From Paucidesulfovibrio longus DSM 6739 (GTDB lineage: Bacteria > Desulfobacterota > Desulfovibrionia > Desulfovibrionales > Desulfovibrionaceae), in the NCBI RefSeq assembly GCF_000420485.1, contig NZ_ATVA01000012.1, forward strand, positions 310,001 through 374,000: a stretch of DNA of 64,000 nucleotides, in the 5' to 3' direction. Position 1 is the stretch's first letter; the number at the start of each line of letters is the position of its first letter. Shown piece by piece: positions 59,086 through 61,251 of the stretch. Below the pieces are notes generated by a model. That model saw only the letters and a program-made list of their open reading frames with translations, had not been told where the DNA came from and did not search any database. The translations under genes were made by a program, and so were the position numbers.

Positions 59086-59358
59086 ATGTGTGCAGCGCTC
59101 GTGGGCGGAATGGACCGGCTCAAAAGGGAATACATCGACGTGGCCAAGAAGGGCGGCGTGAAGCTCAAGGTCTTCACGGGCAAGGAGAACCGGGTCGCCG
59201 ACCAGATCGGCAGCTGCGGGCTGGTCATCGTCTTCACCAACAAGGTTTCGCACAAGGCCCGCATCGAGGTCGCGGCGCATGCCAAGTCCAGGGGAATCCC
59301 CATGAAGATGCTGCACTCCTGCGGCGTCTCCACCCTGCGCAAGGCGTTGGAGGCATAG
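59086..59358 (+). CDS. DUF2325 protein
   Basis: This 90-residue protein matches DUF2325 along its length: ALVGGMDRLKREYIDVAKKG, LVIVFTNKVSHKARIEVAAH, then MLHSCGVSTLRKALEA. It contains a Cys pair (Cys2, Cys44) plus Cys79. The family has no proven function but often lies near iron-uptake genes in sulfate reducers (recall). The Fur-like operator in its promoter points to iron control. The start follows GGAGGTCGAT. Confidence 0.82.
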   Translation: MCAALVGGMDRLKREYIDVAKKGGVKLKVFTGKENRVADQIGSCGLVIVFTNKVSHKARIEVAAHAKSRGIPMKMLHSCGVSTLRKALEA

Positions 59359-59381: not shown

Positions 59382-59621
59382 CTAGCCGCGATCCTTTCCG
59401 CACTGGCCCGGAGGGCAGGACTGCGCGTTCTCTTCCTGAGCCTTTTTCGCAATGGGGCAGCCCTTGCAGCCCGCAGCGGGATCCTGGGGGTCGGCGTCGG
59501 AGCAGCCGCACCCGAAAGGGGCTTCCTCGCCCCGGTCCTTGTCGTTGAGGTACTTGGACAAGGCAAAGAGCGCGCCGAGCGCCAGGACTACGCCGAGTCC
59601 GAGAAGATCGTTCCAGCCCAT
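59382..59621 (-). CDS. Small Cys-rich membrane protein (FeoB-associated type)
   Basis: This 79-residue protein has one N-terminal membrane segment (about 6-24) and a Cys-rich tail: GCGC, CKGC and CPPGQC. The layout resembles FeoB-associated Cys-rich membrane proteins thought to help ferrous-iron handling. It starts behind GGAGGTGACTTC. No feoB is in the window, but the convergent neighbour has a Fur-like promoter. A similar protein is encoded at 61039. Confidence 0.68.
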   Translation of the reverse strand: MGWNDLLGLGVVLALGALFALSKYLNDKDRGEEAPFGCGCSDADPQDPAAGCKGCPIAKKAQEENAQSCPPGQCGKDRG

Positions 59622-59761: not shown

Positions 59762-60373
59762 CTATTCAAAGGCCATGGATACCTTCCATTTTTCCCAGAC
59801 CTTGCCGACAAGGTCCACGCCGGGCTTCAGCGTCTGCTTGCCGGGCCGCCAGCCCGATGGCGCAACCTCGCCGCCGTTGGTATTGCGCACCAGCTGGAAG
59901 GCTTGAATCTGGCGCAGTGTTTCGGAAACGTTGCGTCCCACGGGCGGAGCGAGCACCTCAAATCCCTGGATCACGCCGTCCGGATCGATCAGGAAACGGC
60001 CGCGCACGTCCACTCCGGCGTTTTCATCGTAGACCCCGTAAGCCTCTCCCACTTTGCCCCCGCCGTCCGAAAGCATGGGGAAGGGCACGGTTCCGGCGGT
60101 GATCATCTTGGAAAGCTCCTGATCCACCCACATCTTGTGCACGAAGATGCTGTCCGTGCTCATGGAGAACACCTGCACGCCAAGGGCTTCGAATTCGTCG
60201 TTCTTCTCGGCGACCGCCGAGATTTCCGTCGCTCAGACAAAGGTGAAGTCGCCCGGATAGAAGCAAAGCACCACCCATTTCCCGAGATGATCGGAGAGTT
60301 TCGCCGTGGTGAGCTTGCCGAGATGATAGGCTGGAGCCACGAAATCAGGCGCTTTTTGTCCGATACGGATCAT
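59762..60373 (-). CDS. prxU: Selenocysteine-containing peroxiredoxin (in-frame UGA)
   Basis: This 203-residue AhpC/TSA peroxiredoxin is read through TGA at 60235-60233 as selenocysteine 47. The UGA sits exactly at the peroxidatic Cys of DFTFVCPTEI: upstream is PGDFTFV, downstream [19 protein letters not shown], both in one frame. The rest of the fold is intact to [11 protein letters not shown] and [16 protein letters not shown]. The usual resolving Cys in EVCP is replaced (EVAPSGW), so it should act as a one-selenocysteine enzyme. The start at 60373 follows AAGGAGG. An in-frame ATG at 60490, also with AGGAGAGG, would add 39 residues with Cys9. A SECIS-like hairpin lies at 60205-60222 and the stop is followed by a terminator. 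Confidence 0.87.
60205..60222 (-). promoter_or_regulatory. Bacterial SECIS-like hairpin
   Basis: On the minus strand TCTCGGC pairs with GCCGAGA around a GGTC loop. It starts 11 bases after the in-frame TGA, and the loop begins 17 bases after it. A short stem with GGU in the apical loop at that distance is the form recognised by bacterial SelB. Confidence 0.75.
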
Positions 60374-60689
60374 GGGTCGTCCTCCTTTGGGGGCGTCGTT
60401 CACGGTCGAGTTGGTGTTCGTGGCCTCGGTCTTGGCTGAAGTGGGGCCGCTTGCGGGTCGGGAGCACCCTGCGGCTGCCTCGTTCGTCATTTGCCTCTCC
60501 TGATTCGAAGTTTTGTATTGTAATCAGCTATGTCGTCATGCTGGTCGAATAGACGATTAAAATGGCTATACCCCGAACGGGCGAGGGTGTCATCTCCGTG
60601 AGATGAAAAATCGTGCGGCGTCATGCGGGATTTTGTGGCAGGCCAGGGGGTGGAGGACAGAATCTTGTGCGGTGCGCAGGAAATGCAAA

Positions 60690-61038: not shown

Positions 61039-61251
61039 TCAGCGCTTCCGTTCGGAGGGGCAGCCGCTGCAATTCGCGTCCTTGCCGGGGTCGTAGTTTC
61101 CGAGTCCGGTCGGGGCGCTCTTGCAGCCCTCGCAGCCGCCGGAGCAGCCGCAGGCAGAGCCGGAGGCGCGATATTGGCGCACGAGCCGCCGGATGACGAA
61201 GAATGCGGCTACGGCCACGATGACGAGTACGATGAGGGTGTCGGGACGCAT
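61039..61251 (-). CDS. Small Cys-rich membrane protein (FeoB-associated type)
   Basis: This 70-residue protein has one membrane segment (about 5-22) and six Cys in its tail (ACGCSGGCEGCKS and NCSGCPSE). The ATG at 61251 follows GGAGGATAGAC, two bases after the stop of the permease gene. Its place in the ArsR-controlled operon suggests a metal-related role alongside the permease. It resembles the protein at 59382. Confidence 0.72.
   Translation of the reverse strand: MRPDTLIVLVIVAVAAFFVIRRLVRQYRASGSACGCSGGCEGCKSAPTGLGNYDPGKDANCSGCPSERKR

Follow-up and report, generated by a model that had tools for sequence, protein, structure and literature searches.

A selenocysteine peroxiredoxin gene of Paucidesulfovibrio longus with a candidate resolving cysteine in an N-terminal arm and two probable translation starts

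The prxU locus and its product

The window considered here is the whole 64,000-nt stretch of Paucidesulfovibrio longus DNA that was analyzed, and all positions refer to it. On its minus strand, a frame from 60490 to 59762 encodes a protein of 242 residues (the long form) and contains a single internal TGA, which is codon 86 (60235-60233) and falls within the sequence PGDFTFV-U-ATEIS. The same frame can also be read from an internal ATG at codon 40, giving a short form of 203 residues (60373-59762) whose delimitation relies on the sequence and on a conserved start and ribosome-binding site. Translation of the complete frame yields Pfam matches to AhpC-TSA (8e-37), Redoxin, and 1-cysPrx_C, the last at residues 197-233. 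The NCBIfam equivalog model for PrxU, NF040737, scores 405.3 bits against a cut-off of 270 and is covered over positions 2-233 of its 233, far ahead of the AhpC model TIGR03137, which reaches 190.7 bits and stays under its own cut-off of 272. Kinship with PrxU of Eubacterium acidaminophilum, proposed in the initial annotation, is borne out by this membership.

The active-site motif of peroxiredoxins, PxxxTxx(C/U), is present as PGDFTFVU. In the AlphaFold model, the core has a pLDDT >90 and the first 39 residues, referred to here as the arm, a pLDDT of about 55-65. The best Foldseek matches are of the Prx1/AhpC types, with TM scores of about 0.9 by target length; no solved structure covering the arm was found, these types being the nearest folds. 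The protein thus shares the fold and the PxxxTxx(C/U) motif of typical 2-Cys peroxiredoxins (AhpC/Prx1) but differs from them in having selenocysteine (Sec) for cysteine, Ala210 in place of the C-terminal resolving Cys, and an N-terminal arm. By its sequence, prxU is a selenocysteine peroxiredoxin of the PrxU type, a kind of enzyme that is already known and that would be anticipated in an anaerobe able to decode Sec.

A 13-bp hairpin resembling an intrinsic terminator lies just past prxU (59742-59713, minus strand) and a second at 60709-60690; both are pattern matches, and about one of the two in the region would be expected by chance. Because of these two hairpins, prxU is probably a single-gene unit. 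No conserved operon partner of prxU was found, and flanking genes vary between loci. Small, one-helix, Cys-rich proteins are encoded nearby at 59382-59621 and 61039-61245 (both minus strand); the product of the latter matches FeoB_associated (PF12669), and the former has a similar layout and no Pfam match. An ArsP-type permease gene (PF03773, 61254-62396) adjoins one for an ArsR-family regulator (PF01022, 62415-62771, minus strand), a pair that is likely concerned with metalloid or metal export. A DUF2325 protein (PF10087) is encoded on the plus strand at 59086-59358, in convergent orientation to the stretch that follows prxU.

Selenocysteine decoding

The TGA at 60235-60233 occupies the peroxidatic position (PxxxTxxU). 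Sec peroxiredoxins are widespread (PMC1794560; PMC1088965; PMC13188914), and a scan with the pattern YP(G/A)DFTFVU found at least 118 matching DNA stretches in many phyla. Within the order of P. longus, 297 genomes were searched, scores of which possess a prxU gene; 70 copies were read, all in full, and every one has TGA at the peroxidatic codon. The best stop-free matches of this survey were a contig piece that does not span the codon and ordinary Cys peroxiredoxins with at most 47% identity. The genome also holds the complete decoding machinery, as judged by profiles: selA (PF03841, 530 bits), selB (TIGR00475, 368 bits), selD (TIGR00476, 324 bits), and selC, the tRNA-Sec gene (RF01852, 86.3), which has a tca anticodon (UCA tRNA).

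Other in-frame stops were encountered along the way. The TAG codons seen in some peroxiredoxins of one genus in the order survey (g3) were rejected as recoding candidates, being terminal stops as judged by alignment end points, and a second peroxiredoxin match with TGA in the P. longus genome itself is a thiol peroxidase that terminates at that TGA. The selD of the same genome (L010, C18:686-1612) is a selenoprotein gene too, with an in-frame TGA in the context KRAKSAGUAAK.

Bacterial SECIS elements are stem-loops directly after the UGA with a G in a small apical loop (PMC1088965; PMC9312934). Position, loop G, and conserved pairing are all found in prxU. Just as initially described, an apical stem-loop of 7 bp with a GGUC loop (TCTCGGC-GGTC-GCCGAGA, 60222-60205, minus strand) begins its stem at the 11th base past the UGA. 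Folded as a single sequence, the hairpin is no better than shuffles (z -0.70), so the case for it rests on comparative evidence. Among 54 distinct sequences, 99.2% of the cells are paired, and 43 cells show double changes versus 11.2 ± 5.0 in shuffles; every slid control is far worse than the true register. The variable pairs are mostly at third codon positions, and eight Cys homologues have neither the stem nor the loop. No Rfam SECIS model matched the hairpin at gathering or relaxed thresholds. Judged by this comparison, the hairpin is a covarying SECIS.

The loop has a pattern of its own. Its codons, GCN GTN, would permit 16 combinations of wobble letters, yet 139 of the 143 extended Sec genes use two, namely G..C (87 genes) and A..U (52 genes), with other letters in four. 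The outer loop letters (60212-60215, minus strand) are therefore coupled, as if the four-base loop were under an extra constraint for SelB.

Taken by itself, the lone in-frame stop would resemble an error, and the frame could be thought broken or the codon really one for Cys. A chance stop is unlikely since TGA stands at the same codon in 70 of 70 homologues from the order, and the intact frame, the covarying hairpin, and the full Sec machinery make a pseudogene or sequencing error so improbable that it is refuted in practice. By every available sequence test, it is close to certain that the UGA is decoded as Sec86 and that prxU is a genuine selenoprotein gene, as the initial annotation had held.

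Cysteines of the N-terminal arm and the missing resolving cysteine

The arm (residues 1-39, 60490-60374, minus strand) is predicted to be disordered. It contains Cys9 (60466-60464), a candidate resolving Cys by its conservation in homologues, in the motif C-x-R/K-P. In the 63 extended homologues from the order, Cys9 and Pro12 are invariant, and the rest of the linker varies freely. In a set of 144 extended genes drawn from many phyla, these positions are written with either Cys codon and with any of the four Pro codons, and therefore selection on the arm acts on the protein. This conservation indicates that the 39-residue extension, which the initial annotation had left in question, is real coding sequence under protein-level selection. 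A further Cys, Cys76 (60265-60263, in the strand LCFYP), is invariant in all extended homologues.

The absence of the usual resolving Cys was correctly recognized at the outset. At codon 210 (59863-59861), where typical enzymes have VCPxGW, the protein reads VAPSGW, and residue 210 in the 63 relatives of the order is Thr in 51, Ala in four, and Cys in eight, so that 55 of the 63 have Thr or Ala. The accompanying claim that the enzyme would rely on selenocysteine alone is not established, given the presence of Cys9 in all 63 extended homologues of the order and of Cys76 in every extended form. Neither is PrxU of E. acidaminophilum a clean Sec-only precedent, because its gene shares both the arm and the two starts.

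A survey of 189 relatives compared armed with unarmed forms. Cys is found at a C-terminal resolving position in 18 of 145 armed forms versus 33 of 44 unarmed ones. Uncorrected for phylogeny, the complementary distribution of arm Cys and C-terminal resolving Cys has a Fisher probability of 7e-15, a value not used here as proof because the tree supports well only two independent pairs. The association between Cys9 and the lost resolving Cys may thus be one ancient coincidence. Cys76, for its part, is tied to the arm as strictly as Cys9 is, and it could be the true partner of Sec86 instead. Taking these points together, the sequence comparison somewhat favors Cys9 as a replacement for the C-terminal resolving Cys.

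Several relatives depart from the common pattern. For example, one genome has, besides a Sec copy of prxU (L221), a second copy (L235, G568:C1:2345319-2347232) whose peroxidatic codon is TGC; this second copy keeps the arm Cys and has no C-terminal resolving Cys. Seven related Sec/Cys peroxiredoxins (L236, L238, L239, L249, L251, L252, and L254) possess both a Cys just past the initiator Met region (e.g., MCVRPG) and a C-terminal resolving Cys. Certain unarmed Sec/Cys forms (L138, L141, L240, L241, L244-L248, and L250) instead have two Cys, one about 111 and the other about 143 residues past the active site, rather than one at the usual resolving position. Finally, two PrxU homologues (L081 and L082) have N-termini like signal peptides and are apparently exported; the arm Cys is retained in both (SC.xPA.GP), and neither has an internal Shine-Dalgarno (SD) sequence. 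A lipoprotein reading of the N-terminal Cys was rejected, as no hydrophobic signal precedes the Cys, and in L081 and L082 it lies well downstream of the signal-like stretch.

Two translation starts

Two in-frame starts, each with a ribosome-binding site, had been pointed out initially, and both are found: AGGAGAGG (60501-60494) before the long-form start at 60490, and AAAGGAGG (60388-60381) before the ATG at 60373-60371. An SD sequence stands at both starts in 117 of the 144 extended genes. Among the 110 armed genes having an internal ATG, 89 show an SD match of at least five letters at the right distance, compared with 35.7 ± 4.2 when codons are replaced by synonyms according to the codon usage of the gene concerned and 12.7 ± 3.3 when codons are shuffled; this null treats related genes as independent, and its z-values are therefore inflated. 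Three separate sets gave 42/52, 50/61, and 27/27, where 20.7, 16.4, and 16.3 were expected. At other in-frame ATGs, such an SD occurs in 39 of 677 cases. About one fifth of armed genes have no clear internal SD.

The core AGGAG of the internal site falls in either of two reading frames; 40 genes spell it as Q/K-G-x and 70 with K-E-type pairs. It is thus kept though the encoded amino acids change, and therefore the mRNA sequence itself is conserved. Since unarmed homologues begin exactly at the position of the internal ATG, this codon is probably the ancestral start. The two homologues with signal-like N-termini and no internal SD are what one would expect if a short form confined to the cytoplasm served no purpose for an exported protein, although two cases are only suggestive. 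The evidence points to two isoforms of 242 and 203 residues; to the initial question of which start is used, the sequence answers "probably both".

Known relatives

According to the reference as cited in PMC8533274, the characterized PrxU comes from Peptoclostridium (Eubacterium) acidaminophilum (doi 10.1515/BC.2001.123). Its prxU (EAL2_RS15245, NF040737) is 62.9% identical over residues 1-242, with the UGA at the same position. It has the same arm, MPQDFKPGCARP, an SD at both starts (the internal one textbook), and no C-terminal resolving Cys. It differs in its host phylum, in an arm of 37 residues, and in having two ATGs in the internal start region. We know of no functional difference between that protein and the product of prxU in P. 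longus.

Two other kinds of peroxiredoxin invite comparison. Human peroxiredoxin 4 also has a flexible, not necessarily homologous N-terminal extension carrying a Cys, but it keeps the C-terminal resolving Cys, lacks Sec, and can dispense with the extension Cys for catalysis (PMC3824332). The 1-Cys peroxiredoxins of the Prx6 type share with prxU the absence of a C-terminal resolving Cys; unlike them, the prxU product has additional invariant Cys at positions 9 and 76 and an active-site Sec, and its sequence is nearest AhpC/Prx1.

Proposed mechanism and alternatives

Delivery of Sec-tRNA to the UGA would almost certainly fall to SelB, held by the SECIS hairpin just behind the codon. Peroxide reduction at the peroxidatic residue is established peroxiredoxin chemistry, and Sec86 would accordingly reduce peroxide and be converted to a selenenic acid. 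Cys9 on the arm of the long form, whether in the same subunit or a neighboring one, would then attack the oxidized selenium to form a selenenylsulfide. A thioredoxin-type reductase would reopen the Sec86-Cys9 bond, with Cys9 taking the place of the C-terminal resolving Cys that was lost, a step that is given slightly better than even credence. It is likely that ribosomes also initiate at the internal ATG, which would yield an armless form of 203 residues, so that the cell would contain subunits both with and without the arm. The reading as a whole, a PrxU with a resolving Cys9 in its long form and a second, armless isoform, is the one preferred, if by a narrow preponderance of belief.

An ordinary 1-Sec peroxiredoxin is a less probable explanation, and an unlikely one, although it has several points to commend it. 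An outside thiol or thioredoxin would reduce Sec86 directly, and the arm Cys would have another role, either structural, in an interdimer disulfide like that of Cys51 in Prx4, or in partner docking. The lack of a C-terminal resolving Cys and the match to the 1-cysPrx_C domain agree with such an enzyme, as do 11 unarmed family members that are also without a resolving Cys. A role for the arm Cys as an interdimer link is retained within this alternative because in human Prx4 the extension Cys joins dimers, and mutating it left decamerization and catalysis unchanged (PMC3824332). What this account leaves unexplained is a near-absolute Cys9-x-R/K-Pro on a variable linker in many phyla, and a distribution complementary to that of the C-terminal Cys. 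Resolution by Cys9 has its own difficulties, however: 18 armed forms retain the C-terminal Cys, and the AlphaFold model, in which the arm is disordered, gives it no contact with Sec86. In favor of such resolution, the arm Cys is retained in L235, whose active-site residue is Cys.

Use of one start only is rather unlikely. The short form might be made alone, with the upstream codons a vestige or leader, or the long form alone, with the internal SD a relic of the ancestral start seen in unarmed homologues. The E. acidaminophilum enzyme purified in a 2001 study is said to have had 203 residues and a mass of about 22 kDa; if so, it was the short form exactly. A long form of 240 residues is annotated by NCBI for E. 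acidaminophilum, whose short form would have 203 residues, and is listed for Clostridium sticklandii, with Sec84 (PMC3091704). Calculated masses of the two E. acidaminophilum forms are about 26.6 and 22.4 kDa. A relic SD would decay, though, whereas the internal site exceeds the synonymous expectation in all three sets and has persisted through a switch of coding frame in place. Nor would a leader need Cys9 and Pro12 to be kept with all their codons in use, and in the two homologues that are apparently exported and require their signal peptide, the internal SD has weakened or disappeared.

Implications

Within the open-access papers searched, no report was found of an N-terminal resolving Cys in any peroxiredoxin, or of dual starts or an arm Cys in PrxU. 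As far as these papers show, the arm Cys and the dual start of PrxU are undescribed. Gene calling from stop to start would conceal the Sec as well as the second N-terminus. The two-isoform, arm-Cys reading can be tested directly in a culturable anaerobe, and, if true, it would account for the 240-residue annotation despite a possible shorter product.

More tentatively, PrxU genes across phyla may be two-in-one genes, in which an internal start selected at the mRNA level yields a 1-Sec subunit lacking the arm alongside an armed, Cys9-resolving one. The ratio of the two forms could then set the recycling and over-oxidation of a presumably ring-shaped enzyme, a generalization that is possible rather than probable. 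Should the preferred reading hold for prxU, a resolving thiol would have moved to a flexible N-terminal arm, and a second isoform without that arm would arise from the same mRNA, an unusual way of tuning a peroxidase.
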